Part shown: positions 6,845 to 63,580 of the stretch, one piece after another
How the letters are laid out: every line of letters starts with the position of its first letter
Numbering within the stretch: position 1 is the first letter of the stretch
Translations under genes and position numbers: made by a program
Notes under the pieces: generated by a model
Seen by the model: only the letters and a program-made list of their open reading frames with translations
The model's database searches: none
What the model was told of the DNA's origin: nothing
From: Owenia fusiformis
Lineage: Eukaryota > Annelida > Polychaeta > Sabellida > Oweniidae
DNA: 64,000 bases
Direction of reading: 5' to 3'
Assembly: GCA_903813345.2 (NCBI GenBank)
Contig: CAIIXF020000005.1
Span: 36,893,375 to 36,957,374, forward strand

Positions 6845-7672
6845 TCCCATGTATTCAACACCATATTTGGTCTGGTGGAAGTGGGTTCAATGTTTTGTCA
6901 ACACCATATTTGGTCTGGTGGAGGTGGGTTCAATGTTTTGTCAACACCATATTTGGTCTGGTGGATGTGGGTTCAATGTTTTGTCAACACCATATTTGGT
7001 CTGGTGGAGGTGGGTTCAATGTTTTGTCAACACCATATTTGGTCTGGTGGAAGTGGGTTCAATGTTTTTCTCAACACCATATTTGGTCTGGTGGAAGTGG
7101 GTTCAATGTTTTGTCAACACCATATTTGGTCTGGTGGAGGTGGGTTCAATGTTTTGTCAACACCATATTTGGTCTGGTGGATGTGGGTTCAATGTTTTGT
7201 CAACACCATATTTGGTCTGGTGGAGGTGGGTTCAATGTTTTGTCAACACCATATTTGGTCTGGTGGAAGTGGCTTCAATGTTTTTCTCAACACCATATTT
7301 GGTCTGGTGGACATGGGTTCAATGTTTTATCAACACCATATTTGGTCTGGTGGAGGTGGGTTCAATGTTTTGTCAACACCATATTTGGTCTGGTGGAGGT
7401 GGGTTCAATGTTTTGTCAACACCATATTTAGTCAGGTGGAGGTGGGTTCAATGTTTTGTCAACAAAAGTCAGGTGGAGGTGGGTTCAATGTTTTGTCAAC
7501 ACCATATTTGGTTTGGTGGAGGTGGGTTCAATGTTTTGTCAACACCATATTTGGTCTGGTGGAGGTGGATTCAATGTTTTGTCAACACCATATTTGGTCA
7601 GGTGGAGGTGGATTCAATGTTTTGTCAACACCATATTTGGTCTGGTGGAGATGGGTTCAATGTTTTGTCAAA
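6845..7672. repeat. 43-bp minisatellite (ccatatttggtctggtggag type)
   Basis: About 19 tandem copies of a 43-bp unit, with one short unit near 7460. The unit contains no stop codon in any forward frame and 43 = 1 mod 3, so all three + frames stay open for hundreds of codons (HHIWSGGGGFNVLS, TPYLVWWRWVQCFVN and so on rotate through each). The predicted proteins are therefore an artefact of the repeat. Confidence 0.92.
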
Positions 7673-19078: not shown

Positions 19079-21250
19079 ATGCTTACTATAGTGATGATGA
19101 CAACAACGATGGTAACAATCATGCTAAGATGTCTCATATTGACGACAATATTACAACTGTTGGTCCCTATAGATGCTGCAAGCTGGGACACAGTATGCCC
19201 AGATCAATGTTTATGTGACTTGAAAAAGTCTCCTTACATCGGGAAAAAATTATTAAAAACTTTGGACTGCGAGGGGAAAGAACTGACTAAACTTCCTGAT
19301 GATATTCCAGAGGACACACAAGTGTTGTTATTATCAGGCAATCTTTTTACAACGATAAATCGGGATCTGCCCCAATTACGTAAACTCCTAATGATTGATC
19401 TATCAAACAATACAATCAACAAAATGGGGCAGCATCCAATATTTGAGAAGATTGAGTTACTGAGGTGGTTAAACCTGGGGCACAATGCTATCTCTAAGTT
19501 AAACCATGGAGGATTCAGTGGATTGCTTAACCTAGAAGTGCTTGACATTTCAAATAACAATATATCAGAGATTGGTGACCATGCATTTGGAGGACTGAAC
19601 AACCTGCATAAACTTTCACTAAAGAATAATAATTTGCAGACAATAAATCGGTCCTGGTTCTTCGGACTTTCACATCTCCAGGAACTTGATATCAGTGGCA
19701 ATTTCCTCATTAATCTAAATGATGGGGACTTTAATAAGACACAGCGCTTACAAAAACTGAATCTAGCAAGCAACAATGTGGAGAGCATAAGCAGAAGGGC
19801 TTTCCAAGGCCTAGAGACTCTCGAGTTCCTGGATTTGAGTGACAACAATATGGAAACTGTGCCATACATCTCCTTCACTAGGTTCCATAAGATGGTCATC
19901 CTCACTCTGGACAATAACCCCATCACGCACCTTAAGATGGGTGACTTTGATCGCGTCATGGTGAAGGAACTGAATGTTAACAATATGCCAAATCTGGAAT
20001 ATATAGACGCAAAAGTGTTCATCAATATGGTTGAATTGATCAATCTACAGTTACATGATAACCCTAAACTAATGCATATAGACCCACAGGCATTTGTCAA
20101 ACTCCCAAAGCTTACGCGACTTTATGTACACAATAATGCATTGCTGTCTCTACCTGTGGAGTTGCTAGGCAACCTACCAAGTCTGAAGCTGATCAGTTTC
20201 TATAACAACCCTGTATATTGTGACTGTAACATATACTGGATCCAACAGACCCTGCTGAACACAACTAACATGTCAAGTGTAGAGTTCCAGCAAGCGGATA
20301 AAATAGTTTGTGAGACCCCATATCAATTTGCCAAACATATTCTAACATCGGTACCCTTGGATAAAATCCCGAGGGTCTGCGCCCCAACTGTGATTCCATT
20401 CTTCAGGGATAAGGAGCAAATACCTGTTACTTCCACAGTGAGCTTCTCTTGCAGGGCTATAGGTGTCCCCACACCCAATATACATTGGATTCTTAACACA
20501 AGGAAGATTTTAAATGGAACATCTAATCACAGCCGTTTAAAACTATTCAACAGTGGGACTCTACAGATTGGGCACGTAAAGGCAAAGGACGCTGGCACAT
20601 ACGCATGTATGGCTACTAATGCAGTGAGTCACGACACTGCTTCAATGGTGCTAGGCGTGCATAGCACTAACATCAGAATTATCACACAAGGAGTTTCAAG
20701 TAACTTCATCACTATCACATGGAATGGTACAGACCAGACAGTCTCCAGTACACAGTACAAGATTCTCTGGAAATCTTCAATATCCAACCACCCACCAGAG
20801 GTGATACACCTTAGGCCCTATATGAGGACATATACAGTCACTGACTTAATACCAAACACTCTGTACCAGTTCTGTATCTCATTTGACAATTTAGGTGACA
20901 AAGAAATTCTAAACTGTGCAGATATACAAACTAAGCAGCAAATGTATATTTATCGAGGTATACAAAAGTACAATAATATGGCCGTTATTGCTGCGCTGAC
21001 AGTCACAATATCAACAATTCTCTCTGTCTGTTTAGGAGCTGTAATATTACGACGGTACCGCATGCGAAAGAACTATAAAGAACCAGAAGGGACTAATTAT
21101 AAAGTAGAAAGCATGTCTAACATTCCTCTAGATAATATTTATCATCCACCTTCTACGCCTTTGTGCACTTCTCGAACATCTTTGATATCAAATGCACAAC
21201 CAACGTCACAATCTCATGTTCCTGGCAGTTCATCACAATCCCAAGCATGA
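19079..21250 (+). CDS. LRRN: Leucine-rich repeat neuronal protein (LRRN family), single-exon coding region
   Basis: Type I membrane protein of 723 aa, inferred to act at the neuronal cell surface in adhesion or receptor modulation, as known for the LRRN family. In order: signal peptide (~1-34), LRRNT with CPDQCLC (~40), about 12 leucine-rich repeats (~65-375), LRRCT with NPVYCDCNIYWIQ (~376), one Ig domain (cysteines in VSFSCRAIG ~459 and DAGTYACMAT ~506), one FN3 domain (~530-615), TM helix (~633-655) and a short tail. The tail motif SNIPLDNIY parallels the conserved IPL(N/D)xxY tail of vertebrate LRRN1-3, and the length is close to human LRRN1 (716 aa). The first in-frame ATG is at 19079; the 24 nt before it begin with TTG and are not taken as the start. 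The coding end lies inside a tandem repeat (see 21222-21560). Likely nested antisense in IMMP2L. Confidence 0.93.
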   Translation: MLTIVMMTTTMVTIMLRCLILTTILQLLVPIDAASWDTVCPDQCLCDLKKSPYIGKKLLKTLDCEGKELTKLPDDIPEDTQVLLLSGNLFTTINRDLPQLRKLLMIDLSNNTINKMGQHPIFEKIELLRWLNLGHNAISKLNHGGFSGLLNLEVLDISNNNISEIGDHAFGGLNNLHKLSLKNNNLQTINRSWFFGLSHLQELDISGNFLINLNDGDFNKTQRLQKLNLASNNVESISRRAFQGLETLEFLDLSDNNMETVPYISFTRFHKMVILTLDNNPITHLKMGDFDRVMVKELNVNNMPNLEYIDAKVFINMVELINLQLHDNPKLMHIDPQAFVKLPKLTRLYVHNNALLSLPVELLGNLPSLKLISFYNNPVYCDCNIYWIQQTLLNTTNMSSVEFQQADKIVCETPYQFAKHILTSVPLDKIPRVCAPTVIPFFRDKEQIPVTSTVSFSCRAIGVPTPNIHWILNTRKILNGTSNHSRLKLFNSGTLQIGHVKAKDAGTYACMATNAVSHDTASMVLGVHSTNIRIITQGVSSNFITITWNGTDQTVSSTQYKILWKSSISNHPPEVIHLRPYMRTYTVTDLIPNTLYQFCISFDNLGDKEILNCADIQTKQQMYIYRGIQKYNNMAVIAALTVTISTILSVCLGAVILRRYRMRKNYKEPEGTNYKVESMSNIPLDNIYHPPSTPLCTSRTSLISNAQPTSQSHVPGSSSQSQA

Positions 21251-47200: not shown

Positions 47201-50200
47201 TAAGACTGAATGATGATGTTTTTTAGATACCGCATCAAGTTCAGGAAAACTGATGAAAAGTTTTGGACGCTTCAGGAAATGCCAGAGAACCAAATCCCTA
47301 AATATTTTTCTGTTATTGAAGTAAGTTTACTTGTTGATACATCCTGTCTGCCAAGTCGGGAAGTCATGTCTGCCAAATGGGGTACATTTACATTCTGAGT
47401 GCGAGTGTCCCTGTTAGGGTCATGCACATCAGTCAAATGGGGTATACATGTATATACTGTATATGTCAAGTAAGGAGACAGAATGTGCATCATGTTTTGA
47501 TGACTTTTGTGTCGGCTTATTATAAGGGCTCATGCCCCAAAGGTTAGGGAACATTTGACAAGAATGTGATATGATATTTATCCCATTGGAATATGATATT
47601 ACACTAAGATATTATCCTGATCAATGAGTCAATTTGATTTTGATATTTTCCGTTTTAGTATGTGATCACTGACCTGGAGACTAACGCCATCTATGAGGTC
47701 CAGGTTGCTGGGGCAACAGCAAGTCTTTACTCGCAGTCACCTACTCTAGTCTACTATTCTGGGGACTACTCAGTTCCAGTCACTTATGAGTTGAAAGGTA
47801 AGAGATTCTAGCTAGGACTTGCATACTGCCAGTATAAGCCCTGTTGCATCAGCCAACATCCTATAACATATACAATTTTCAAAAATGGTAGGCATTGCCG
47901 TTCAATGGGATTTGCTACACCTTGGCGCTGCTGTTATCTAGTTGTTCCTGTGAGCAGTCATGGTTCATTGATAATCTGTGAGTTTATTAACCTAAGATTA
48001 TTCAAGGATGACTCAAGAATGTTTTGTTACTCCTAGGTGAAGTTGAGGAGGAAGTGAAAGAGGACAACATATTCCATGCAGGAGTTATAGCAGGCGTGGC
48101 TCTTGGTGTACTTCTCTTGATTGTCGTAATTAGTGTTGTAACTGTCTTACGGTAAGGAGTTTAAATCTGTGTGATTACAGAAAATAATATTGTGTGATTT
48201 AAAGTGAATAATCTTGTATAATTTACAAAGGAGAGAGAAGTGATTTTTTGGGATAACACATATCATGTGTACCTTAAATTATATGTATTACAATGACTTG
48301 GCATATAACATAGGACTAAGAATAGTCAGAAGTTTTCCATATTTTTGGCTGATTAAAAAAATTGATGTACAATTTACTCCCCCTTGTTGTGATATTAACT
48401 CATTCATGTTGACACTTCAATGTTAAAACTTAATGTTGACACTGTAATGTTGACACCTCAATGTTGAAACTCCAATTTTTACACTTCAATGTTGACACAT
48501 GAGTTGATTTCTAGCTATAGAAAGAAATCTGCAGATTACCCAGATGCAGCTGAAATGGAGGCTAAGCAAGCCTTACTTGGACTCCAAACTATTAACCTTC
48601 CACCATATGGTAAGCTATCATCTCATGCATTGCCTCGTGTCTGCCTCATTTCTGCCTCATCACCAGCTTGTGTATTTTTAGCTTATATAGGAGGTACTAC
48701 AAAGCTAACAAGTACTTGGTGCCTGCTGATCATACTGCTAGTGAAGTTCTTTTGCAGCCGAGTCTTTACCTTGATGCTTATGGTAAGTTGTACCGTATTA
48801 TTACACATCCCACCTCTCAATTAATTGCCTTAGATTCCTTTGCAATCTAACATATGGTATCCTAACACCCCTCTGGTTTTTACTGATGACATTAACTTGG
48901 ACGCGTCCAACTAAGTATAAAACTAGTAAGTACACGTGCTGAGGTCCTCAATTTCCCCATACAAGTGCAATCTACGTACTACTGTATAGAAATTTTGTCA
49001 ACCTACAGAAGTTAGGAATATGGACAGCAACAACAACAACCCCATCCTAAAGGATGTTAACCTCAACAACACAGCATTGTATTATGGTGAACTGGAAGAG
49101 GGTCAAATTATAGACTCTGCTTCAGGCTTTCTTCAGAACTCCACGACTGACTTTGGAAATTCTGCATATAACATGCCATCACACACCAACACCAGCGGTT
49201 CACTCGACAAACATGCTAAAGAAGTCTTGCTTCAGTCAGACTTCAATCCAGATCTTCATGATCCCAGGCTCGCTAAAGCCAGTGATTCTAGGCTCTTTCC
49301 TCGAGGGAATGAGGTGCAGGACACTTTTAGCAACAAACATCAGAACCCCATGTCTCACATGAGACCAGGTGGAGACTGTTTACAGTCCGATAAATTGAAC
49401 TCTATAGGATTCAATTCTACAAACATTCAGGCTTCTAAAAAGCTACTGAAAAAACAACGCGATTTACAACGCTCCAAAGAACCCCTAAATGAACCCCAAG
49501 TTTATCAACAAACGGGGTCTGGATTAGTGCAAGACATCATCAAGGGGTTAACTCCAACATTGGAAATGATCGCCTCTAATAAACAACTGGATATTGAGCT
49601 CTTAGGTCAACCTGAAAACAGGAACAGATCTTCTCAAAGACGCTCACAACAAAGGAGAAAACGTCATAATTCCCCGGTTTCTTCACAAGACGATAGCTCG
49701 CCCGCACGGACACTTAGCATTAAACGGCATCGTTCTGATCACCCCTCCACTAGTGAAATGGAATCTCCCGACAGAGACACAACGCGCATGCGCAGTGTTA
49801 ATAACCCGGAAATGGATTCCGATTCTTCAGCATCAGAAAATGATTATGACTCGAATTCGTGGAAAAACTGCATTAAATTGATAAAAAATGCATTCCCGGA
49901 ACACTTTACAACGAGCCCCGATACCAACACGAACAAACAAACAGCAAATATTCCATTAGGATTACAATCTTTGGGCAGGAAGGCATCGTCTTCTGAGAAT
50001 TCGAATGGATTACCGATCGGACCTTCTGTTCAACAAAATTTCACAGCGATGAACCAAGAAATATACAACAAGAGGAACACCAACGACGGTAATTTCCTTC
50101 TCAGGCCTAAGCGGTCTTTCACTTCTTTGAAAGATGATGAACATTTTTATAAAAAATGCATCTTAAACAACACAATCAAAGAATTGGTTCCACCTACAAT

Positions 50201-53200
50201 GAAACTCTCTGAATTGAGTAATTCAACAAATTATAAGCTGCCAGCAAAACATCACAAGCTGTTAGAGGAATCAGCTAAAGCCCCCCTCAGATATTTATCA
50301 CACACAGAATGGCTGCTAGGGGCAACAGGTAAAATTGTAGCAGAAAAATTCCCTGACAATGAGGATTTGATTAATTTGTTGTCTACAGCTTCTACAATGG
50401 TCAACAAAGCAACCAGAGATACTGTTTCAAACATTACCAATGTGATTCTAACACAGAGGGATCGTATCAGTTCCAAATTCAGAAGATCTGATGCGGAATC
50501 ACTAAGGAATCTCCCAATTGATACGACCTACTTATACCCAGAGCCTCAATTAAAAACAATTTGTGAAGGCTCTGATAGATCCAAAACTTCTAAAGCTCTA
50601 CAGGATCTGGCTTCAAACTGGAAAAAGCCCAAAAACGACAACAACAACTATTCAGCTAAAAACAGCTATAACAGAAATAATAACAGAGGCAATTATCACA
50701 ACAACAACAACAGAGGAAATTACAACAATAACAGAGGAAACCACAACAATAGAGGCAATTACAACAATGACAGAGCCTCTACATCAACTAAAGACAATAA
50801 CAACAAACAAAAGAAGCGAAAATGACACTCACAGTTTAACTGTAACCCAGCCCTGCCTCCCCCTATTCTCACCTACAGCCCAGCTGGGACCAGTGGGAGG
50901 CAGAATTCAACAACACAAACACAACTGGGAACTCATTACCAAGGATCAATGGATCCTAAACATAGTAAAACATGGATATGCTCCAGAATTAACAGCAACA
51001 CCACCAATGACAAACCTATTCAACAGGTTCGAATCGGCGTCAAAAAGAAAATCCCAACTTTTTCAAGAAATAGTAGAAAAATTACTTCAAAAACAAGCAG
51101 TGGAACTAGTAAAAAACAACACTATAGGACACTACAGCATAATCTTCTTAAGACAGAAACCAAACGGAGACTACAGACCTATAATAGACCTGTCTCTCCT
51201 CAACAAGTATCTAACTTGTCCAAAATTCAAGATGGAAACAACTGCAAAAATTTCCAGTGCTCTTCAAATAGGCGAGTGGGCTACCTCCATAGACTGTCGG
51301 GACGCCTATTTCCATGTACCAATAGCCAAAAACTTCAGGAAATACCTCAGATTTGTGATAAACAATCAAGTGTATCAGTTCAAAACACTCCCATTCGGGA
51401 TGTCAACCAGCCCTTACGTCTTTACAAGGATAACGTTGGCAATTGGGGCATTCCTACATTTCCAAGGAATAACAATACACATGTACCTCGACGATTGGCT
51501 CATACGAGCCTCATCTGCCCAACAGTGCCTCATATGGACTCAAACAGTAATAACTGTGATGGAAAAATTGGGACTGATAATCAACTTCGAAAAATCAGAA
51601 CTTACCCCAACTCAAAACTTCAAATACATAGGCTCACAATACAACCTAGCCTTGGGACTTGTATATCCACCTCAAGACAGGATCCAAAAGATCCTAGAAA
51701 TCTCTCATCTATTCATCAACTCTCTACACCAACCAGCGAGACATTGGATGAAACTACTAGGCCTGCTGGCCTCTGCGGAGAAAAACATACCCTGGGGAAG
51801 GCTACACATGAGACCGATACAACAATGTCTAGCCAATCAAATGTCCCATTTACAATCCCTAGAGACTCCTATTTACATAAATCAGGAGGTAATACACACC
51901 TTGAAATGGTGGATGGACAAAAACAATCTTTCACAGGGCCAACCATTAGGGATGTTTACCCCAGATCACACAATTTTCACAGATGCATCAGAGACAATGT
52001 GGGGTGCACACATGGACACAGTGGAGATAAATGGATTCTGGTCCCCTACAGAGAGGAACAATCACATAAATTGGCTGGAACTAGCAACAGTACTGAAAGC
52101 TCTACACAAACTAAATCACCTTCTAGTACCCCAAGCAAAAATTCTCTTTTGCCTGGACAACACCACAGCATTGAGTTACATAAACAAACAAGGCGGGACA
52201 AAATCGAAACAGCTTCTGACCCTGAGCCAAGAAATCCTAAATTGGTGCAAGGATCATCAAATCAACATAAAAGCAAAACACATAGCAGGATCCCTAAACC
52301 GACGAGCAGATGCTCTATCTCGGAACAGAATAGTCAACACAGAATGGTCTCTACTCCCACGAATTGTGCAATCACTGTGGCAGATATGGGAAACTCCCCA
52401 CATAGATATGATGGCAACATGTCACAACAACAAATTACCACTGTACGTATCCCCAGTCCCAGACCAAAACAGCTGGGGAACAGATGCAATGTCAATGTCA
52501 TGGAACAATCTGAATTTCTACATATTTCCACCAACAAGCATGATGGACAAAGTCTTGACAAAAATGAAAACACACACCTGCGAAGCCATAATGATAGTTC
52601 CAAAATGGCCAAATCAACCTTGGTTCGCTCAGTTACTGGATCTACTAGTAGACCATCCAAGAACTCTACCAACATCTCCAAAGCTTCTAAAGATGCCAAA
52701 CACAAGCATGTTTCATCAAACTCCAGAAATATTTGCTCTTCACGCCTGCAAATTGTCAACGACTCCCTCAAAAAACAAGGATTTTCTTCAGAAGTGTCTT
52801 CTAGAATATCAGAATCATCTAGAAGGAAATCAACAAATAAACTCTATGATTCCAGGTGGAACACCTTCACTCTTTGGTGTGAAGAACGGGATACAAATCC
52901 ATGCCAAACAGATATACCTCTAGTGGCAGAATTCCTTCTCTACCTACACAAGACAAAGAAATTCTCTATTCCAACTATAGAAGGCTATAGGACAGCTATC
53001 AACACAGTACTAAAGAAGTCTTCAGATATAGACCTCACTGACAATTCACTAATAGGAGATCTTATTAGATCCTTCAAACTAGAAAATGTAATACCTAAAA
53101 ACATTATTCCCAAATGGAATTTAGTGTTCGTTCTAAATGCACTAACAAGAGCACCATTTGAACCCATGGCCACAGCTGAATTAAAGTTCACAACATGGAA

Positions 53201-56200
53201 AACTCTATTCCTGCTACTCATGGCTTCGGGCAAGAGAAGAAGTGATATTCATGCACTGGACTTCAGACGTCTAAAATGGTCAGAAAACAGGGATCAAGTG
53301 ACTATGTATCCCTTTATAGGTTTTTTGCCTAAATCACTATCAGCTGCGGAAGGAGAATCTCGTTTTCAACCAATCTCCATAAAAGCTCTTTCCTCTTTCG
53401 TGGATAAAGATTCACCTGACAGGAAACTTTGCCCTCTGAGAGCCTTACGCTTTTACCTACAAGCCACAGTCGCTAGAAGAGGAAACAGGAATAGACTTTT
53501 TATTCCATTTAAGCCTGGATACGATGGAGATATACACATTAACACTATCTCATCTTGGGTGAAAAATCTGATCTTGTATACATACAAAAATTCACAAGAA
53601 TCAGATTACAGGATCGACTCCATTAAACCCCACGAAACCAGGGCCCTTTCTGCAAGTCTAGCTGTTCAAGCAAACTTATCAGTGGCCGCAGTTCTCAAAG
53701 CATGCTCATGGGCAAATCACAACACATTTACCAGCTTCTACCTCAGAGATACATCAGTGATTGAGGGAGAACTGCGGAAACTGGGTCCTATGATGATTGC
53801 AGGCACCCTGTACGACATATAACTTCAACATTACAGTAGGGTGAGTTCAAAACCTGTTTTCATCAAACATTCTTATTTATTTATTAGAATTAAATTCAGA
53901 ATGTTTCTACTCATGGTTTGTGGGGCCCTCTGGTTATTACTGAATTCACCCACCACCTTTTGGCTACATTCAGGCAATTAATTGAGAGGTGGGATGTGTA
54001 ATAATACTGGGAAAATCCTTTTTAAATTGATTTTCCTGTTTATAAACATACCCACCTCTCAATTACCAAAGTCCCACCCAACCTCCCCGCTATTCACTAG
54101 GGGGAATAGGGAAATTGAGGACCTCAGCACGTGTACTTACTAGTTTTATACTTAGTTGGACGCGTCCAAGTTAATGTCATCAGTAAAAACCAGAGGGGTG
54201 TTAGGATACCATATGTTAGATTGCAAAGGAATCTAAGGCAATTAATTGAGAGGTGGGTATGTTTATAAACAGGAAAATCAATTTAAAAAGGATTTTCCCA
54301 ATTTGCACTAATACCTCATTACAAGCTACTGTAACTTTAAGCTTCAATCCTAATGATAACAATTACTACATTCATAATTACATACAGCCTCAACATTTAG
54401 TATAATGGCCTTATTAACCAGTTTATGACTCGCATTGTGATTCTGCTTATGGTAGTTAAGCCTACCTGCACACAACCAGTCACATGATCAGTCACATGAC
54501 ATGTTGAAGTATTTGAGAAATTGTTACACCATGCTGACATCAATATAATGCTATACTGTATATTTTTTTTACTGTGATAACATCGATATACAATATTTGT
54601 AATACATTCATGGGCGTAGCGCTATTTTTCTAAGTAGTACGCCGCCACCACAGGAACAAGAGCTGAGTGAATTAAAAAACAATCATTCTGGGAAAATTTT
54701 GAAATTTGGTTGTATTTGGAGTGAATTTGCAACCATCTGGTACGCCTGTGAGTACCCAGCGTACCGGGCTCTACGCCCATGACATTTCAGGTATTCTTGT
54801 ACAGCCAGTATTAAATTCACTGAAAACTATTATATTTTTGAGACATTGAAGCTAGTTTCAGTTATTTTAAATAAACTTGGGATACCTTTGTTATATTTCC
54901 TACACCCAGGTCCCAGGGACTATCCTTATTATTGAAGTTTCATATTTTGTGTTTTTTATTGCTCGTCAGTTTGTTCACATGATGAATATTTTAGTTTTAC
55001 AATCATTTTTTGTTTGCTTATGTTGTAAACAGGAAAAAGACTCACCAACCGTGGTAAGCTTGTTTATAACACCATGTATTTTTTATTTGTATCTTCATGT
55101 GTAAATGTACCCAACATGCATTTGTGATATACATGTATCTAACATATGTTGGTATACATTGTGATATACATGTATCCTACTTAAGGTACATGTACAGGGT
55201 GGGCCAAAAAAACACCACTTTTTTTTTCAAGACACGACAACTTTTTTATTTTCCAACCTACATACCCCAAATTTTGCAGTTATATAGTGCCGGGGGTTCT
55301 TAGTAATAATATAATATAACAAATCCTTCAACTAAGATTATATTGGATCTAAAAGGGAAGTTCAATTGGTCCGCCACCCTAATTGATGATATATTTTAGG
55401 TTTTAGTCGCCTTGCTGATATAGCAGTATCAATGAAATGTTAGCTAAGTTTTTTTCAACCTGTCTTAATTGTCAGCTTTAGTTGAGCAATTTTCTAGATT
55501 GGGTGCCTTCATACAATCTCCTGGAGACCTTCCCATACCCTATACTCACTGGGGTTTGCATCAGGGCTATTAACTTGGCGATCATCAGGCCGTATCAGTT
55601 CAGGAACATTTCGCAAATTATGCTCATTTTCACGGCACACCACATGTTTAAGTGAGACGCTGGTGACATATTTTACTCAATTAAGAGTGTATAATTGATG
55701 GTTCCTGGCTAGATAACAACCTCAAGTTTCATTTGGTATGCAAATTATGATTTTGTATCAAAAATTAAAAAAGTTATAGCATTTTGAAAAAAAAGTGGCA
55801 TTTTTTTGGCCCACCCTGTATATCACTAACAAATGTTAGGTACATTGTACATATCATTATGTTAGTGATATATGTTTTGATATACCGTAAATGTATGTTT
55901 GTGGTGTTTACCCTACATATGTTTGATGATATATGTACATATGCCCTACATATGCTTATAATATACATCTACATGACACATGTTTGTGATTTACATGTTC
56001 CCTACATATGTTTTTGATATCTATGTACCCAACATATATTAGTGATATAAATATATCTTACATATGTTAGTGATATTCATGATGTAATATATCCTACATA
56101 CATATGATATGTTTGTGATATATACATTATGTTCATATATCCTACTTATGTTTGGGTAACCTACAATTATATCAACTGTTAAATATTTTTTGCTTGTGTT

Positions 56201-59200
56201 TACATATTGTTTTAGTAACCTTTTTGAATGAACATACTTTTTGTGTACAATTTCATCATAATAGGTTTTGTTGAAATGTTTTACAGATGATTTAACTTGG
56301 TTGTTTGCTTACATTCAATATTTATATATTTGATTGCCTGGTGTATCCTGGTGTTTCTAATCCTGGTGTGATCCTGTAATCCATTTTATATAATATTAGT
56401 TTTTCAATGTACAAAACACTGTACATATCCTTGAATTGTATGACATGTATCTAAGATCAAAAGAAACTAATGCCATAGTTACATTTGATCTAAGGCAACC
56501 ATCCGATGGCCCTAGCTTCCCAAAATCGAGAGAAATATTCAACATAAAAGATAAGCCGTACGATGTCGATTTTCTATATCAATTTTGTGAAGCTACAGCT
56601 GAGGCTTAAATATTGACATGTCAAAATGTGTTATACGAGTACATATGTTTGATCTCTCTCAGTTGGAAGAAAAGAGATGTACATTGGCCCAACATTTCTT
56701 TCAACATATATTAGGTCCTTATTTCTTATGTCCTCCATGGCATGATTACAATATATAATATTGTTTACTTTGTGGCATGTTCTATGACAGTTGTCATTAC
56801 GAATGCATGCATGGGTATTCCACTTGTCTGGTGTATTATTATTGTTGTACAGTTGTCAGGATGATATAATCGAAGCAAAGTCACTAATTAATCTTGAACT
56901 ATCACTTTAATACTTAGAGAATGAGTATTAAATTGTTCAATTAAGCTCATTGTCTCAGTTCATATGTGCTCTATTTAATAGTATGGGATTCTATTTGCCA
57001 AGGATACATTCAAGATATCTGCTAGTATGTGAGCTCACAAAGTGACTTATTTTTACACTTACCATCAAACCACTTAGAATATAAGGTGACCCAGAATATT
57101 TGACACAAGACAATATTGTCACTGTCTAGTGGTTCTGTACAACAGCTCTGTACTTTTAGTCTATTGACTCTAAACAGCTGTACATTTGGTGGCCCATATT
57201 TAACATTGGTGGCCTTTGTTTAACATTCGTGGCAACATCTTTAGCATTTGTAATACTTGTGCTTCAGATGACTCGGATGGAAGTGTTTCAGTTGAGAACT
57301 TTGCTAAACATGTGCAGACTTCACATGCTGATGGGGATGCTGGATTTGCACAGGAATATGAGGTGAGCAAATCATTTTGTTGAGAGAGTTGTAACAAACA
57401 GAGTTTCTTCATGCAGCATGGCTATTGTATAGGTGCGCAGAAGCATGGCCTAAAATTAAAGCAAATCCTAAACCATACTGTACTACAGAGTCATGGTTTA
57501 ATATGAACACTGCAGGAGATTCATACTGGTGAGATGTTGATTATTAATTTGATATGAACATTTCTTAAGATGCATACTGGCGAGATGTGTGTGATTGATT
57601 TGATATGAGCATTTCTTTAGATTCATAGTGGAGAGATGCGTGTGTTTGATTTGATGTGAACATTTCTTGAGATTCATACTGGAGAGATGCATGTGATTGA
57701 TTTGATGTGAACATTTCTTGAGATTCATACTGGAGAGATGATTTGATTGATTTGATATGAACCTTTTTTAGATTCATACTGGAAAGTTGTGTGATTGATT
57801 TGATATGAACATTTCTTGATCTTCATACTGGAAAGATGTGTATGATTGATTTGATATGAACCTTTCTTTAGATTCATACTGGACAGGTGAGTGTGATAGA
57901 TTTGATGTGAACATTTCTTTGGATTCACACTGGAGAGATGTGTGTAATTGATTTGATATTGAACATTTCCTGAGATTCATACTGGAGAGACATGTGTGAC
58001 TGATTCAATATGAACATTTCATGAAATTTGTATTGTAGCGGCAGCAGTTGATTTGAAATGAATGTTACATTAGATCAACAACGGTGAAACAAAGTAGTTC
58101 ATTTGACATTGACATGGGTGTTTCATAAAATCCATACTGGTGAGACATATTAGACTATCTTCTCTTACATATTACAGGAGATCCATGCTGGAGTGAAGCA
58201 TGACTACACTACAGCCCACTCTAATGACCCTGATAACAAGAGCAAGAACAGATACATTAACATATTATCATGTGAGTATAGTGGCAGAAACTACCTTCAA
58301 TATGAATATATGTATTTAGTTGGTTCGTGGCCTAAAGAGACATGTACGAGTAATATTGTGTACTGTATACACTGTACTCCTAAATGTGCTGTAATTATTA
58401 CATATACCCACGTTGTGTTCTAGATGATCATAGCAGAGTGGAACTAAAGCCAGTGCTGGGCAGACAGAAACATAGTGACTACATCAACGCTAACTATGTA
58501 GATGTAAGTAAAACATAGTGACTACATCAACGCTAACTATGTAGATGTAAGTAAAACATAATGACTACATCAACGCTAACTATGTAGATGTAAGTCAAAA
58601 CATAATGACTACATCAATGCTAACTATGTAGATGTAAGTAAAACATAATGACTACATCAATGCTAACTATGTAGATATAAGTAAAACATAATGACTACAT
58701 CAACGCTAACTATGTAGATGTAAGTAAAACATAATGACTACATCAATGCTAAATATGTGGATATAAAACATAATGACTACATCAACGCTAAGTATGTGGA
58801 TATAAAACATAATGACTACATCAACGCTAACTATGTAGATGTAAGTAAAACATAATGACTACATCAATGCTAACTATGTAGATGTAAGTAAAACATAATG
58901 ACTACATCAATGCTAACTATGTAGATGTAAGTAAAACATAATGACTACACCAATGCTAACTATGTAGATGTAAGTCAAAACATAATGACTATATCAACGC
59001 TAACTATGTAGATGTAAGTAAAACATAGTGACTACATCAACACAAACTATGTAGATGTAAGTAAAACATAATGACTACATCAACGCTAACTATGTAGATG
59101 TAAGTAAAACATAATGACTACATCAATGCTAACTATGTAGATGTAAGTAAAACATAATGACTACATCAACGCTAACTATGTAGATGTAAGTACAACATAA

Positions 59201-62200
59201 TGACTACATCAACGCTAACTATGTAGATGTAAGTCAAAACATAATGACTACATCAATGCTAACTATGTAGATGTAAGTAAAACATAATGACTACATCAAT
59301 GCTAACTATGTAGATATAAGTAAAACATAATGACTACATCAACGCTAACTATGTAGATGTAAGTAAAACATAATGACTACATCAATGCTAACTATGTAGA
59401 TGTAAGTAAAACATAATGACTACATCAATGGTAACTATGTAGATGTAAGTCAAAACATAATGACTATATCAATGCTAACTATGTAGATGTAAGTAAAACA
59501 TAGTGACTACATCAACGCTAACTATGTAGATGTAAGTAAAACATAATGACTACATCAACGCTAACTATGTAGATGTAAGTAAAACATAATGACTACATCA
59601 ATGCTAACTATGTAGATGTAAGTTAAACATAATGACTACATCAACGCTAACTATGTAGATGTAAGTAAAACATAATGACTACATCAACGCTAACTATGTA
59701 GATGTAAGTCAAAACATAATGACTATATCAATGCTAACTATGTAGATGTAAGTAAAACATAATGACTACATCAATGCTAACTATGTAGATGTAAGTAAAA
59801 CATAATGACTACATCAACGCTAACTATGTAGATGTAAGTAAAACATAATGACTTCATCAATGCTAAATATGTGGATATAAAACATAATGACTACATCAAC
59901 CCTAAATATGTGGATGTAAGTAAAACATAATGACTACATCAATGCTAAATATGTGGATATAAAACAAAATGACTACATCAACGCTAACTATGTAGATGTA
60001 AGTAAAACATAATGACTACATCAATGCTAAATATGTGGATATAAAACATAATGACTACATCAACGCTAAATATGTGGATGTAAGTAAAACATAATGACTA
60101 CATCAATGCTAAATATGTGGATATAAAACATAATGACTACATCAACGCTAACTATGTAGATGTAAGTAAAACATAATGACTACATCAATGCTAAATATGT
60201 GGATATAAAACAATGACTACATCAATGCTAAATATGTGGATGTAAGTAAACCATAATGACTACATCAATGCTAAATATGTAGATGTAAGTAAAACATTGT
60301 GACTACATCAACGCTTAATATGTGAATGTAAGTAAAACATAATGACTACATTAGAGTGAGAAAAATAAGCTATTTCTGTGCATAGCAAATGTATCCCCTC
60401 ACTTTGTAACCCTATGGGCATATACATTCAGACTGGTCAAATTGTTGTAGTCACAGCATTGCTGACACAAATATCTCTTTGGCTAATTTGTTCGCAATGT
60501 TTTTTGATATAGTGGACAGTTTGAATTCATACCACGCATTTTGCTCAATGTCAGTGACTTAAGATAAGAAACAACGAATAATAAAGCAGTATGATATCAG
60601 TATTTTATTAGTACATTCATTGTCTATTTTGATTCTTTCAGGGTTTTCACAAACCACGTGCCTACATTGCCACACAGGGTCCTCTCCCTCATACATTTGC
60701 AGACTTCTGGCGCATGGTTTGGGAGCAGAACTCATATGTTATCATTATGATAACTAATCTCATGGAACGGGGAAGGGTAAGTCATAATATATTTTTGGTG
60801 ACATGTGACAAGTGTTGACATTGTTATAGTCTCCAACTTTTTTGTGGACAGTGTTCGGCGGACAGTGTTGAGCATTCTGGGTAATTTAAATGTCAGCCAT
60901 TTTGAATATCAAGTGTCTTGTTTTCTTCATAATCATGAAGTGATCTTATAACTCACTAAGGACACAACTATAATATTGAATGTACACCATTTGCTTGATT
61001 CCTTCAGGCATTCAGCCTTGGATTGTTGGATTATTCATAAAAGTACTGTATGTAATATTTTCTCTGTCTCCAGCGCAAGTGCGACCAGTACTGGCCCGAT
61101 GACGCCGCAGAGACATATGGGTTCCTCCAGGTGAAACTTCTTAACACATACGTGTTAGCGCATTCTACTATGAGACAATTCACACTGAGGAACACTAAAA
61201 TAAGAAAGGTAAAAATTGTTGAACTTGTTGCTTTATATGAACTAACATGTGATAATGTTAACATGAGCTCTACTTGTTGCGAACAACACCCACATGTTAA
61301 ATTATCATAGATGTCTGCTTCTATCATGGCTAATTTGTTCAAGTCCTTTTATTAATAAGTGTCATCAATGTGTTTCTCAAGTTCTCAGTGAGGACCTGTA
61401 TTGCCATCTTCCAATGGAAATCTGCTCCAAATCCCCTTTAACAACTCTAGTGCATTGCCTTTGTTTTGATATCCAAAACTGCAAAGAACAATGTTAAAAG
61501 AGAGTGTATTTGATATTTGCAGAAGGGTCCCTCTTCAGAGAGGCTGGTCTACCAGTTCCACTATACAGACTGGCCTGACCATGGAGTTCCAGACTTCACA
61601 TTACCAGTGTTGGACTTTGTTAAGAAATCCCAGGCTGCAAACCCAGACAATGCTGGGCCTGTTGTCATACATTGCAGGTAATGCTTTAATACATTGTACT
61701 TGCGGGTAATATTGTTTTATCATTATACATTGCAGGTTATGTTGTCATACATTGCAGGTAATATTGTCATACATTGCAGGTAATGTTGTTACACATTGCA
61801 GGTAATATTGTCATACATTGCAGATAATGTTGTCATACATTGCAGGTTATGTTGTTACACATTGCAGGTAATATTGTCATACATTGCAGGTAATGTTGTT
61901 ACACATTGCAGGTAATATTGTCATACATTGCAGATAATGTTGTCATACATTGCAGGTTATGTTGTTACACATTGCAGGTAATATTGTCATACATTGCAGA
62001 TAATGTTGTCATACATCGAGGTAATGTTGTTACACATTGCAGGTAATATTGTCATACATTGCAGGTAATGTTGTTACACATTGCAGATAATATTGTCATA
62101 CATTGCAGATAATGTTGTCATACATTTCAGGTAATTTGATTTGCCATTTGAAATATTAAGAGAATGTCATTATTTCAAGTTTTTTTTGTGATGAGTTTAT

Positions 62201-63580
62201 GTATTTTAGCTATTTACATGTAACACAGGTGTAAATTATCAGGTACAAACTTTTAGACATCAAAGTACTTAAGTACATTGTACATAAGAGGATAATATTA
62301 ATATGAATTAATTATGATGATGTCAGAACAAGTATTAATGGTCAGTGTTGCAACTTTAAAGGGTCTAGGGGCCAAACAAATCTTTAGTCATTCAAGATAA
62401 AAACTGTATATTCCGAATGGTTTAATGTATTCCAGTGCTGGAGTGGGCAGAACGGGAACTTATATCGTCATTGAAAGCATGATACGACAAGCAAGACAGA
62501 AAAAATCCATCAATGTTAAAGGATTTCTCAAACATATAAGACAACAGAGAAACTATCTTGTGCAGACAGAGGTATCATTGTTTTTCATTTGTTTACTCTA
62601 TTTAGTAATTTACGCTTTGTGATTAAACACACACCACATTCAGACACAGCTCACAGTGAAGAGTTTAATGAAATTATGTGATTTAAGTTCTATAATGATA
62701 TTACATGTCTCATGTACCTAGTGAAACATTTGCATGGAAGTCAATGGGATAGTAAGTGGGTTCATTTCATTGTGAAATAATCTTTAAATATGCAATATTC
62801 TATATTATTCTTAGGAGCAGTATGTGTTTTGTCATGATGTCTTACTGGAATGGGTGGAGAATGGAGGGGAGACGGAATGTAAGGAGGCAAAGCTCCATGA
62901 ATATCTGCAAGCTCTGACAGAGGGTGGTGATGAATCTCTTCTCACTAAGCAATTCAAGGTATGATCAGTCCTATACAAAGTCAGATGTTTTAATGTAGAA
63001 AGAACTTCAGCAATATTGAAGATTATATTACTGTAGATTTCTTAGTTCATGTATTGTTGAATTTGCAACGTATGAAAGTATCCAGATAGGTCCTGGGCAT
63101 TAGGTCATCTATAAGTGGCAATCTCAACTTACATTTTATGTAATGCCATATTATAACACATGTGTTTAACCTTGCAGCTGGTGACATCTTTTAGCCCCAA
63201 GGACTACCAAGTGGTCAGTGCTAATAAATCGTACAACACCAAGAAAAACAGAAACATGAACATCTTGCCAGGTAAAATAAAGCACTTAGATATCAGTATA
63301 CATTTACTTTTTCAATCCCATGGCATAACAGTCTTTCAAGCTATATGTACATTGTACTTCTTTATAATTACTATTGATATTTATAAAAGAATGCCTATTT
63401 AAATTTTTGATGCATTTTGAATTTTTTGAAAGGTTTCTTTCAATTTTGTCGTTTTTCAAGTATGAACAACCCTTTAAACAATGTTATATTTTCTATGCTA
63501 CAGTTGAGCTGAATCGTGTGAAACTCACAGCACGACCGGGGGAAGAAGGATCAGACTATATCAATGCCACCTATCTGGAA
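38203..63580 (+). CDS. Receptor protein tyrosine phosphatase, R5/Ptp99A class (gene span, 3' end outside the window)
   Basis: Transmembrane tyrosine phosphatase assembled from 23 coding exons that join in consistent phase (990 codons with exon 13a, 987 with 13b, up to 63580). In order: signal peptide (1-18), one Ig (~19-117), four FN3 (~118-218, 219-318, 319-420, 421-530), TM (~546-568), alternative juxtamembrane exon, D1 and the start of D2. D1 has [16 protein letters not shown], the WPDHGVP loop (D807) and the signature [10 protein letters not shown] (C839, R845), so it should be catalytic. D1 wording ([45 protein letters not shown]) is closest by eye to PTPRG/PTPRZ and insect Ptp99A. The Ig plus FN3 ectodomain, without carbonic anhydrase, favours the Ptp99A type. 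Inferred role: axonal or cell-contact receptor dephosphorylating tyrosine. The coding start could be preceded by noncoding exons. Confidence 0.93.
38246..41323 (+). other. RPTP intron 1
   Basis: 3.1 kb of AT-rich sequence. 40725-40870 has a diverged repeat of cacccacctgag/cccacttgaaaa words. No other gene. Confidence 0.7.
41324..41498 (+). CDS. RPTP exon 2: first half of the Ig domain
   Basis: Encodes [21 protein letters not shown] and onward through LDWIK, with the first Ig cysteine and core tryptophan. Acceptor ttgccag, donor GTAAAC, phases 1 to 2. Confidence 0.88.
41816..42300 (-). mobile_element. 5'-truncated LINE (L1-like) 3' end with poly-A
   Basis: On the - strand the end of an ORF2-like frame reads [20 protein letters not shown], then [11 protein letters not shown], with a stop at about 42084. 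This is followed by a ~260-bp 3' UTR with a C-rich run and an A-rich tail with AATAAA at 41855-41816. The FGN.xF...IF.LTSxFI pattern resembles L1-group ORF2 C-termini. Inserted antisense in RPTP intron 2. Confidence 0.5.
42668..42801 (+). CDS. RPTP exon 3: second half of the Ig domain
   Basis: Carries [20 protein letters not shown] with the DSGxYxC box that closes the Ig fold. Acceptor atttcag, donor GTAAGT, phases 2 to 1. Confidence 0.9.
43231..43360 (+). CDS. RPTP exon 4: FN3-1, first half
   Basis: Encodes [20 protein letters not shown], then ITWQPG and the YIVELLR strand. Donor GTACGT, phases 1 to 2. Confidence 0.9.
43613..43785 (+). CDS. RPTP exon 5: FN3-1, second half
   Basis: Encodes [20 protein letters not shown] followed by [13 protein letters not shown], the classic FN3 LxPxTxYxxRVxAxNxxG pattern. 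Donor GTAAAT, phases 2 to 1. Confidence 0.92.
44410..45012. mobile_element. Foldback MITE, TTAA-type ends, in RPTP intron 5
   Basis: The left end TTAAAGGAACATTCCTGGCC is the reverse complement of the right end GGCCAGGAATGTTCCTTTAA. The arms extend about 230 bp each (shared words AAATATGGAAAGTATA, AGTGATGTCATCGACTC, GATGGCAGC or GCTGCCATC) with several mismatches. The terminal TTAA can be read as target duplication. Confidence 0.8.
45286..45470 (+). CDS. RPTP exon 6: FN3-2, first part
   Basis: Encodes [20 protein letters not shown], then [20 protein letters not shown]. Acceptor ttttgcag, donor GTAAAG, phases 1 to 0. Confidence 0.9.
45669..45783 (+). CDS. RPTP exon 7: FN3-2, second part
   Basis: Encodes [20 protein letters not shown] then SVGEGPADS. 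Donor GTCAGT, phases 0 to 1. Confidence 0.9.
45925..46134 (+). CDS. RPTP exon 8: FN3-3, first part
   Basis: Encodes [39 protein letters not shown] and on to ITKLS. Donor GTAAGT, phase 1 to 1. Confidence 0.9.
46439..46505. repeat. 31-bp direct duplication with GCTCACATGGTGAGC palindrome
   Basis: TTAGCTCACATGGTGAGCTT plus gcaatcact occurs twice, 36 bp apart, in RPTP intron 8. The core is a near-perfect palindrome like the one at 28984. Confidence 0.85.
46711..46906 (+). CDS. RPTP exon 9: end of FN3-3, start of FN3-4
   Basis: Encodes [20 protein letters not shown], then [20 protein letters not shown] and SWNKPK. The domain boundary lies inside the exon. Donor GTATGT, phases 1 to 2. Confidence 0.88.
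47227..47320 (+). CDS. RPTP exon 10: FN3-4, middle
   Basis: Encodes [20 protein letters not shown] and on to YFSVIE. Acceptor gttttttag, donor GTAAGT, phases 2 to 0. Confidence 0.85.
47659..47797 (+). CDS. RPTP exon 11: FN3-4, end, and membrane-proximal stem
   Basis: Encodes [20 protein letters not shown], then a short stem ending in YELKG. Donor GTAAGA, phases 0 to 1. Confidence 0.88.
48037..48151 (+). CDS. RPTP exon 12: transmembrane segment
   Basis: Acidic stem [13 protein letters not shown] followed by the hydrophobic helix [20 protein letters not shown]. Ends VTVL plus CG of an arginine codon, so it leaves in phase 2. Donor GTAAGG. Confidence 0.92.
48395..48505. repeat. ~18-bp degenerate repeat before exon 13a
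   Basis: Five or six imperfect copies of (a)ctTCAATGTTGACAC immediately upstream of the first alternative juxtamembrane exon. It ends about 10 nt before the polypyrimidine-AG. Confidence 0.7.
48515..48609 (+). CDS. RPTP exon 13a: alternative juxtamembrane exon
   Basis: Encodes (R)[20 protein letters not shown], then [11 protein letters not shown](G). Enters in phase 2 from the TM exon, leaves in phase 1. Donor GTAAGC. 95 nt. It cannot be spliced to 13b without a frameshift (see 13b), so the two are alternatives. Confidence 0.85.
48691..48782 (+). CDS. RPTP exon 13b: alternative juxtamembrane exon, mutually exclusive with 13a
   Basis: Encodes (R)[20 protein letters not shown], then [10 protein letters not shown](G). 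Like 13a it needs phase 2 in (from exon 12) and gives phase 1 out. It is 92 nt long and only 81 nt from 13a. If spliced after 13a (phase 1) it would read the hydrophobic nonsense frame [17 protein letters not shown] and break the frame of the catalytic exons. Acceptor ttatatag, donor GTAAGT. The basic-aromatic start [11 protein letters not shown] is a plausible membrane-proximal sequence. Confidence 0.8.
48809..48957. repeat. DIRS left inverted terminal repeat
   Basis: Starts CCCACCTCTCAATTAATTGC and runs through TTGGACGCGTCCAA to ATTTCCC. Reverse complement of 54109-54257, nearly perfect. Confidence 0.93.
49020..50825 (+). CDS. DIRS ORF1, gag-like protein (601 aa)
   Basis: Starts at an ATG just after the left terminal repeat. 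Low-complexity Asn/Ser-rich N-terminal half, a basic [11 protein letters not shown] stretch (~residue 206) and an acidic-serine patch. A more structured block (~390-500, [30 protein letters not shown]) follows, with a C-terminal run of N/RGN repeats that probably binds nucleic acid. The position matches ORF1 of DIRS elements, whose products are poorly conserved. It overlaps the following RT frame. Confidence 0.8.
   Translation: MDSNNNNPILKDVNLNNTALYYGELEEGQIIDSASGFLQNSTTDFGNSAYNMPSHTNTSGSLDKHAKEVLLQSDFNPDLHDPRLAKASDSRLFPRGNEVQDTFSNKHQNPMSHMRPGGDCLQSDKLNSIGFNSTNIQASKKLLKKQRDLQRSKEPLNEPQVYQQTGSGLVQDIIKGLTPTLEMIASNKQLDIELLGQPENRNRSSQRRSQQRRKRHNSPVSSQDDSSPARTLSIKRHRSDHPSTSEMESPDRDTTRMRSVNNPEMDSDSSASENDYDSNSWKNCIKLIKNAFPEHFTTSPDTNTNKQTANIPLGLQSLGRKASSSENSNGLPIGPSVQQNFTAMNQEIYNKRNTNDGNFLLRPKRSFTSLKDDEHFYKKCILNNTIKELVPPTMKLSELSNSTNYKLPAKHHKLLEESAKAPLRYLSHTEWLLGATGKIVAEKFPDNEDLINLLSTASTMVNKATRDTVSNITNVILTQRDRISSKFRRSDAESLRNLPIDTTYLYPEPQLKTICEGSDRSKTSKALQDLASNWKKPKNDNNNYSAKNSYNRNNNRGNYHNNNNRGNYNNNRGNHNNRGNYNNDRASTSTKDNNNKQKKRK
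50767..52923 (+). CDS. DIRS ORF2: reverse transcriptase, RNase H and methyltransferase-like domain
   Basis: The frame is open from 50563, but its first ATG is 50767, and the Thr-rich head is an out-of-frame shadow of the ORF1 Asn-rich tail. [42 protein letters not shown] and the active site MYLDDW (~51481). RNase [12 protein letters not shown] (~51980), [27 protein letters not shown] and RRADALSR, so the acidic residues expected for catalysis are present. The C-terminal [18 protein letters not shown], then [13 protein letters not shown], is the methyltransferase-like module typical of DIRS elements. Overlaps the recombinase frame by about 320 nt. Confidence 0.92.
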   Translation: MTEPLHQLKTITTNKRSENDTHSLTVTQPCLPLFSPTAQLGPVGGRIQQHKHNWELITKDQWILNIVKHGYAPELTATPPMTNLFNRFESASKRKSQLFQEIVEKLLQKQAVELVKNNTIGHYSIIFLRQKPNGDYRPIIDLSLLNKYLTCPKFKMETTAKISSALQIGEWATSIDCRDAYFHVPIAKNFRKYLRFVINNQVYQFKTLPFGMSTSPYVFTRITLAIGAFLHFQGITIHMYLDDWLIRASSAQQCLIWTQTVITVMEKLGLIINFEKSELTPTQNFKYIGSQYNLALGLVYPPQDRIQKILEISHLFINSLHQPARHWMKLLGLLASAEKNIPWGRLHMRPIQQCLANQMSHLQSLETPIYINQEVIHTLKWWMDKNNLSQGQPLGMFTPDHTIFTDASETMWGAHMDTVEINGFWSPTERNNHINWLELATVLKALHKLNHLLVPQAKILFCLDNTTALSYINKQGGTKSKQLLTLSQEILNWCKDHQINIKAKHIAGSLNRRADALSRNRIVNTEWSLLPRIVQSLWQIWETPHIDMMATCHNNKLPLYVSPVPDQNSWGTDAMSMSWNNLNFYIFPPTSMMDKVLTKMKTHTCEAIMIVPKWPNQPWFAQLLDLLVDHPRTLPTSPKLLKMPNTSMFHQTPEIFALHACKLSTTPSKNKDFLQKCLLEYQNHLEGNQQINSMIPGGTPSLFGVKNGIQIHAKQIYL
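52605..53822 (+). CDS. DIRS ORF3: tyrosine recombinase
   Basis: From an in-frame ATG at 52605 this gives 405 aa. The frame itself is open without a stop back to 50949 and beyond, overprinting the RT. N-terminal SAM-like region ([40 protein letters not shown]), then the catalytic domain: arginine in [12 protein letters not shown], the HxxR box [13 protein letters not shown], and tyrosine in [10 protein letters not shown] near the end. It would integrate the circular DNA intermediate of the element. The true start codon is uncertain; initiation or frameshifting from the RT frame is possible. Confidence 0.9.
   Translation: MAKSTLVRSVTGSTSRPSKNSTNISKASKDAKHKHVSSNSRNICSSRLQIVNDSLKKQGFSSEVSSRISESSRRKSTNKLYDSRWNTFTLWCEERDTNPCQTDIPLVAEFLLYLHKTKKFSIPTIEGYRTAINTVLKKSSDIDLTDNSLIGDLIRSFKLENVIPKNIIPKWNLVFVLNALTRAPFEPMATAELKFTTWKTLFLLLMASGKRRSDIHALDFRRLKWSENRDQVTMYPFIGFLPKSLSAAEGESRFQPISIKALSSFVDKDSPDRKLCPLRALRFYLQATVARRGNRNRLFIPFKPGYDGDIHINTISSWVKNLILYTYKNSQESDYRIDSIKPHETRALSASLAVQANLSVAAVLKACSWANHNTFTSFYLRDTSVIEGELRKLGPMMIAGTLYDI
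53973..54065. repeat. DIRS internal complementary region
   Basis: 53973-54007 is the reverse complement of the left end of the element, and 54008-54065 of the right end (GGGAAAATCC, GATTTTCCTGTTTATAAAC). In the known DIRS replication model such a region templates circularisation. Confidence 0.93.
54109..54257. repeat. DIRS right inverted terminal repeat
   Basis: Reverse complement of 48809-48957. Followed by a 43-bp extension to 54300. Confidence 0.93.
55033..55053 (+). CDS. RPTP candidate microexon (21 nt)
   Basis: Between acceptor tgtaaacag and donor GTAAGC lie 21 nt that are in phase 1/1 and read (G)KRLTNR. Inclusion or skipping keeps the frame, so it may be alternative. Its basic content suits the juxtamembrane region. 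Support is the splice motifs and phase only. Confidence 0.5.
55095..56155. repeat. ~30-bp TA-rich minisatellite (acatatgttngtgatataca type), split by a MITE
   Basis: Loose tandem units of (ta)catatgttngtgatatacatgta occur both before 55195 and after 55818. The intervening 624 bp are a mariner-type MITE. Degenerate but clear on both sides. Confidence 0.7.
55195..55818. mobile_element. Tc1/mariner-type MITE with TA duplication
   Basis: Ends CAGGGTGGGCCAAAAAAACA and its near reverse complement (CATTTTTTTGGCCCACCCTG) are flanked by TA on both sides. The arms continue with ACTTTTTTTTTCAA. No transposase frame. Inserted into the TA-rich minisatellite. Confidence 0.88.
57268..57362 (+). CDS. RPTP exon 15: entry to catalytic domain D1
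   Basis: Encodes [20 protein letters not shown] and on to GFAQEYE, matching the (V)xxFVKHI...HGFSEDFE segment that opens PTPRG/PTPRZ D1. Donor GTGAGC, phases 1 to 0. Confidence 0.92.
57505..58160. repeat. ~51-bp minisatellite resembling the start of the next exon
   Basis: About 12 copies of GAGATTCATACTGGAGAGAT, then gtgattgatttgatatgaacatttc-type sequence, decaying to the right. The core resembles the start of exon 16 (CAG|GAGATCCATGCTGGAGTG), and the first copy even has CAG before it (ctgcaggagattcatactgg at 57512). Short - strand ORFs here are shadows. Confidence 0.8.
58178..58271 (+). CDS. RPTP exon 16: D1, KNRY segment
   Basis: Encodes [20 protein letters not shown] then [11 protein letters not shown], the NxxKNRYxN motif of PTP domains. 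Acceptor tattacag, donor GTGAGT, phases 0 to 1. Confidence 0.95.
58424..58503 (+). CDS. RPTP exon 17: D1, DYINANYVD segment
   Basis: Encodes [20 protein letters not shown] then INANYVD, ending exactly at donor GTAAGT in phase 0. The last ~37 coding bases plus the donor are the founder unit of the minisatellite that follows. Confidence 0.95.
58461..60352. repeat. 43-bp minisatellite built from the exon 17 end plus its splice donor
   Basis: About 44 tandem copies follow the exonic founder. The first intronic copy repeats the exon end exactly (CATAGTGACTACATCAACGC, TAACTATGTAGAT, GTAAGT). Most others differ by one or two bases (CATAATGACTACATCAAYGC). A minority, mainly at the right (59870-60240) and near 58745-58805, are ~37-bp units lacking GTAAGTA. 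About 35 copies keep a full GTAAGT. The exon frame read past the true donor stops at TAG 58516-58518. Confidence 0.97.
60642..60776 (+). CDS. RPTP exon 18: D1, QGP...WRMVWEQ segment
   Basis: Encodes [20 protein letters not shown], then [20 protein letters not shown]. Acceptor tctttcag, donor GTAAGT, phase 0/0. Confidence 0.95.
61074..61208 (+). CDS. RPTP exon 19: D1, KCDQYWP segment
   Basis: Encodes [20 protein letters not shown] and on to [12 protein letters not shown], close to RRKCDQYWP...RNTKVKK of PTPRG. Donor GTAAAA, phase 0/0. Confidence 0.95.
61523..61677 (+). CDS. RPTP exon 20: D1, WPD loop to catalytic cysteine
   Basis: Encodes [20 protein letters not shown], then [12 protein letters not shown] and ends ...GPVVIHC plus AG of serine. 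It contains the general acid D807 and nucleophile C839. Donor GTAATG, phases 0 to 2. The exon end seeds the array that follows. Confidence 0.95.
61660..62132. repeat. 22-bp minisatellite built from the exon 20 end plus its donor
   Basis: The exon-intron junction GTTGTCATACATTGCAG|GTAAT is repeated about 20 times, usually as alternating pairs (GTTACACATTGCAGGTAAT and GTCATACATTGCAGGTAAT, some with GATAAT or GTTAT). The first intronic copies are diverged; copies from 61728 on are close to the exon. In the exon frame any use of a later donor meets TAA directly after HCR. Confidence 0.95.
62436..62571 (+). CDS. RPTP exon 21: D1, signature loop and Q loop
   Basis: Encodes [20 protein letters not shown] and on to [13 protein letters not shown]. 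It completes [10 protein letters not shown] with catalytic R845. Acceptor attccag, donor GTATCA, phases 2 to 0. Confidence 0.95.
62815..62958 (+). CDS. RPTP exon 22: end of D1 and D1-D2 linker
   Basis: Encodes [20 protein letters not shown] and on to [12 protein letters not shown]. Acceptor ttcttag, donor GTATGA, phase 0/0. Confidence 0.93.
63178..63271 (+). CDS. RPTP exon 23: start of D2
   Basis: Encodes [20 protein letters not shown], then [11 protein letters not shown], corresponding to the KLVTQCNAK...KEKNRNSSVVP start of PTPRG D2. Donor GTAAAA, phases 0 to 1. Confidence 0.92.
63504..63580 (+). CDS. RPTP exon 24: D2, DYINATY segment; last exon in the window
   Basis: Encodes [20 protein letters not shown] then NATYLE, donor GTAAGT in phase 0. 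The remaining D2, including its (in this class usually degenerate) active-site loop, lies outside the window. Confidence 0.92.

Follow-up and report, generated by a model that had tools for sequence, protein, structure and literature searches.

The available text of two reports on amphioxus (PMC3087553, PMC3902484) describes mirages, which are minisatellite-like duplications of intron-exon boundaries that in many cases carry splice signals and are unstable in length. They affect Adh3, the globin genes BflGb6 and BflGb9, troponin C, and PGBD5, and the RT-PCR data given there for Adh3 and the globins suggest that regular splicing is not interfered with. In human IFI6, two downstream minisatellite units serve as donors in mRNA, according to the portion of PMC4526556 at hand, and genes in human segmental duplications have tandem repeats at exon-intron boundaries, discussed in the accessible part of PMC2812944 as a source of novel introns. 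Earthworm metallothionein genes carry minisatellites in an annelid intron, which the available text of PMC12783039 does not describe as junction-spanning.

We analysed a 64,000-nucleotide window (C5:36893375-36957374) of the 498 Mb genome of the annelid Owenia fusiformis. An erythrocruorin linker domain of annelid type has three matches in this genome (PF16915, best E 5e-7); a search for the GFP family gave no match, a result that carries no information on lineage. It contains a receptor tyrosine phosphatase gene on the plus strand, which begins at about 41.3 kb in the window and runs beyond its end, and whose extracellular part comprises, by eye only, Ig and fibronectin type III domains. Exact matching placed 21 of the 22 exon peptides; the exception, the exon at 61523-61677, was read directly. 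Joined together, the exons that encode the first phosphatase domain match PTPRS (PDB 4bpc, E 5e-150). Because this alignment is gap-free across the YVD/GF junction at 58503/58504, the segment 58424-58503, which the initial annotation had called an exon, is by homology a real one, and the donor at 58504 is the predicted productive site, which would also be the one used in the animal. The features referred to below are as follows.

57497 to 58028, plus strand: degenerate 51-base array, probably of acceptor type, resembling an acceptor plus the start of the exon at 58178.
58178 to 58271, plus strand: exon after the degenerate array (peptide exact match).
58424 to 58503, plus strand: DYINANYVD-coding exon of the first phosphatase domain, 80 nt, between TAG and GTAAGT; the exonic repeat copy occupies its last 36 bases.
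58504 to 58509, plus strand: predicted authentic splice donor GTAAGT, by homology to PTPRS.
58468 to 60351, plus strand: 43-base minisatellite of exon end plus donor (the main array).
60642 to 60776, plus strand: next exon (peptide exact match and PTPRS homology).
61523 to 61677, plus strand: exon with WPDHGVPDF that ends in VVIHC, the start of the catalytic loop, and from which the second donor-type array derives (boundaries by eye).
61678 to 62135, plus strand: second donor-type array, with a 22-base unit, GTTGTCATACATTGCAG/GTAAT, and 17 further copies matching at 18 or more of the 22 bases.
62436 to 62571, plus strand: exon with AGVGRTG, the remaining catalytic loop (peptide exact match and PTPRS homology).
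63503 to 63580, plus strand: YINATYLE exon in phosphatase domain two, homologous to the exon at 58424-58503 (peptide exact match).

Elsewhere in the window, at 19046-21250, a long single open frame encodes a protein with leucine-rich repeat, Ig, and fibronectin type III domains. A mobile element occupies 48990-53822 within a phosphatase gene intron. Pfam recognises a reverse transcriptase domain in one of its open reading frames (PF00078, E 7e-25), and those of 998 and 611 aa had no Pfam match at E 0.001. Judged by eye from a motif, the 998-aa frame appears DIRS-like.

The repeat unit of the main array consists of the last 36 exon bases joined to GTAAGTA. Tandem Repeats Finder (TRF) reports 44.4 copies with a period of 43, 92% matches, and a score of 3037, in agreement with the 44 copies initially annotated, and anchoring resolves 44 full units (numbered 0 to 43, with the exon end itself as unit 0) followed by a partial unit 44. 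The first intronic copy had been described as identical to the exon end, and unit 1 does equal unit 0 over all 43 bases; unit 24 likewise shows zero differences. The count of about 35 intact GTAAGT donors is reproduced exactly between 58401 and 60420, although it includes the true donor and so leaves 34 decoys in the intron. A uniform 43-base spacing holds for 32 of the 44 intervals only, the others being 44 (five), 39 (six), or 37 bases (one). Nine of the 44 units lack GTAAGT; two of these read ATAAGT and seven are short units. From unit 32 onward, 6 of 12 units show differences in at least seven columns, and five of those six are short units from which the donor has been lost. A second TRF row with a period of 216 suggests block duplication. 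Outside the gene, the window holds a further array of 43-base units that likewise has a higher-order period of 216 bases (6855-7671); that the two arrays have these periods in common is probably a coincidence.

The copy number given here is that of one assembly, and tandem arrays are often mis-sized in assemblies, so that copies might have been inflated or even invented by the assembler. We regard this as very improbable: the units differ among themselves, a higher-order period is present, gene sequence lies on both flanks, and arrays of the same kind occur elsewhere in the genome. A 217-base query made of the exon and the first units gave 13 matches in the genome, all 13 in its own locus (a search that may skip common words), and on this result we rejected an introner-like mobile intron element. 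A guessed 23-base pattern returned zero matches.

Reading on from 58504 gives V-S-K-T-stop, and any later donor would therefore bring an in-frame stop before the catalytic loop, as had been proposed for every downstream choice. The IFI6 (6-16) minisatellite, reportedly described by Turri in 1995, is said to contain multiple splice donors and to have a 12-base unit that stays in frame. The main array resembles it in starting at an exon end and containing a splice donor, but its 43-base unit is out of frame. The use of downstream IFI6 units as donors makes a regulatory role conceivable in principle, and the array might be a length-dependent tuner, in which downstream donors would divert pre-mRNA to stop-containing, decaying transcripts and copy number would set phosphatase output. 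The in-frame stop after the first donor fits this, as do the 34 intronic GTAAGT sites identical to the true donor, and the 5' end of the U1 gene that was read (L086, ATACTTACCTGG) can pair with GTAAGTA; intronic minisatellites have moreover been linked to alternative splicing in Caenorhabditis elegans (PMC4039745, as far as its available text goes). The amphioxus mirages, which in the passages cited above reportedly leave splicing undisturbed, speak against a tuner, as does the lack of enrichment of arrays at junctions reported below, and we consider it unlikely.

The same 34 U1-complementary sites underlie the initial proposal of a sponge that titrates U1 snRNP. U1 matches above the cut-off number at least 42 in the genome, which makes this implausible; one intron would moreover offer few sites per cell, and we assign the sponge a negligible probability. 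The U1 matches are themselves unevenly distributed, 34 of the at least 42 lying in one cluster at C9:23745153-23771556, mostly at 750-base spacing.

The initial annotation treated the array as singular, a view that the rest of the gene and the wider genome do not bear out. Within the gene, the second donor-type array starts about 1.3 kb past the end of the main array, after the VVIHC exon. Upstream, the segments 57494-57738 and 57949-58196 match each other (62% identity, E 2e-11), and the degenerate array there is probably of acceptor type. Beyond the window, the same gene has acceptor plus exon-start copies (L013, positions 1375-1539; 39 bases, 4.4 copies) before the exon that follows the YINATYLE exon of the second domain. 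A donor array after the YINATYLE exon itself (63503-63580) was looked for and not found.

We scanned 36 sequences (the window, L009-L028, and L069-L083) for a YINANY-like exon end with a candidate donor. After L082 was removed as a spurious motif match, 16 phosphatase domains remained, a count drawn from a subset of 99 phosphatase matches. Donor arrays stand at this exon end in 4 of the 16: the window gene, L016 (31 bases, 11.9 copies, 97% matches), L025 (a unit of about 35-41 bases, 3.2 copies, 73% matches), and L080 (41 bases, 12.7 copies, 80% matches, with a GTGAGT donor). Because their intronic halves are mutually unlike by eye, we infer separate origins for the four arrays. Such recurrence of unlike units might mean that the conserved DYINANY exon end is a duplication hotspot at which arrays arise repeatedly. 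Arrays are more frequent here than elsewhere (4/16 versus 2/63, Fisher p 0.014, a post hoc test whose denominators were set by hand), also with the window gene set aside (3/15 versus 1/62, p 0.022, again with denominators set by hand). Against a hotspot, the position was chosen after the fact, the Fisher comparison takes sites elsewhere as its reference, where the overall array density is 9.9% (see below), the downstream span searched ranged from 341 to 1990 bases, and 2 of the 16 donors (L081 and L083) are doubtful. The recurrence is suggestive only, and a hotspot as its cause seems to us quite improbable.

Arrays at junctions also occur in motor protein genes. One myosin locus (L044) has an acceptor array, and another (L038) has a weak donor array in which four exonic bases only are shared. 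A kinesin locus (L091) has two acceptor arrays, the second recognised by eye. In a further kinesin region (C2:23266359-23269174, L095 and L096), one exon piece is matched 18 times at 159-base spacing, with a repeat unit of an acceptor plus about 130 exon bases; the 3'-most copy continues, as the real exon, into further kinesin-like sequence, and the other full copies that were read end in a stop. Both intron ends are thus affected in this genome, with donor types in the window, L016, L025, and L080 and acceptor types in L013, L044, L091, and L095/L096. L009, flagged as a donor array, was dropped as wholly intronic, and arrays near exons in L024, L027, L033, L035, L042, L047, and other loci were inspected and not counted (minus-strand loci were read unreversed). 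Separately, C9:37986009-37994334 has twelve tandem matches to nearly the same myosin head stretch (within positions 18-84), the pattern that a myosin gene with many alternative exons would show.

Junctions are not favoured by arrays in the sampled loci, and they may be spared. For a junction copy test, the edges of HMM matches in the fetched loci were taken as boundaries, with all candidate AGs tried at acceptors, which gave 79 donors (37 phosphatase, 30 myosin, and 12 kinesin) and 80 acceptors (40, 30, and 10, respectively). Two or more further copies were found at 7 of the 159 edges, or at 6 without L009. In a second test, which scored TRF arrays of at least 2.5 copies with an exon edge within 12 bases, an array lay this close to 7 of 162 exon edges, some of them merely near an array, versus 9.9% of non-exon positions (binomial p 0.017). 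The sampled loci are rich in minisatellites (9.1% of non-exon positions lie inside arrays). They had been picked by family matches, HMM edges lie only near true splice sites, and unlisted exons were counted as non-exon. The second test was run without L001-L004, L017 (window gene), L005-L008, L032, L036, the kinase loci, and L069-L086, and L013, from the same gene, was kept. Since the best matches of the tyrosine-kinase loci (L049-L068) fall mostly within single exons, the edge tests did not draw on these loci. Genome-wide, spaced GTAAGT triplets number 7095 versus 6536 for the reversed pattern, an 8.6% excess in what is a weak test, since overlapping matches inside large arrays enter the count. 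The figure of 7/162 against 9.9% calls for no more than neutral growth of repeats that now and then extend across a junction, and a sparing of junctions is what such growth together with some purifying selection predicts.

By comparison with the published repeat types, the main array is confirmed as a striking member of a known one, the mirage: its unit spans an exon-intron boundary with one end copy being the real junction, 35 of 44 units carry GTAAGT, and 5' and 3' intron boundaries are both affected in the genome. It shares with the amphioxus examples, as the available text presents them, an occurrence at either intron end, varied unit lengths, and homogenised units. It differs in its annelid host, in having 44 units versus 6 and 3 in two BflGb6 haplotypes, and in the presence of several arrays within a single gene and of arrays at homologous junctions in paralogues. 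With the human segmental-duplication genes, as far as the accessible part of that report goes, it has in common a boundary minisatellite expansion that changes gene structure, but it sits in an intron whose position is shared by other phosphatase genes of this genome. The earthworm metallothionein minisatellites are similar in lying in an annelid intron but, in the text at hand, are not described as spanning a splice junction.

We therefore think it likely that the main array is a mirage-type minisatellite, a junction-spanning tandem duplication that grew into the intron and is tolerated there, with no dedicated function. A short tandem duplication would have happened to span the exon-intron junction and then expanded into the intron in minisatellite fashion. 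The copy beside the exon body would stay exonic because its donor is the first to complete the 80-nt exon, and all later copies would be intronic, with latent donors. Since splicing as a rule uses the authentic junction, the array would be tolerated, and it would be harmless while the first exon-completing donor is used. The observed basis for this reading is the anatomy, the exon homology, the read-through stop, the unrelated units at other junctions (22 bases in the same gene, 31 in L016, about 35-41 in L025, and 41 in L080), and the lack of a junction excess; the array is presumably neutral. Where strong identical donors are duplicated, the downstream sites are often preferred, which would predict mis-splicing at the main array and counts against neutrality. 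The available text of PMC8724738 neither supports nor denies downstream preference among duplicated donors. Also against a neutral array are the post hoc excess of donor arrays at one phosphatase exon end (4/16) over elsewhere, the slight genome-wide excess of spaced GTAAGT triplets in the weak test above, and the perfect GTAAGT kept in 35 of 44 units, a retention that homogenisation explains equally well.

General and annelid-directed literature searches returned no annelid mirage among the matches listed. What is new here is the occurrence of mirages in an annelid, the number of units, the presence of several arrays in one gene, and, suggestively, the recurrence at homologous junctions. Given the annelid host, mirages are not confined to amphioxus. 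It is doubtful that boundary minisatellites stand beside a few percent of exons, arise again and again at one conserved exon end in phosphatases, and through copy number determine the loss of receptor phosphatase mRNA to stop-containing splicing; if true, they would amount to a permanent reservoir of competing splice sites that varies in length. An array that sets dozens of nearly identical donors or acceptors next to a real junction is a natural test of how the spliceosome selects a site, and boundary arrays give material in which the emergence of new splice sites and the growth of introns can be studied.
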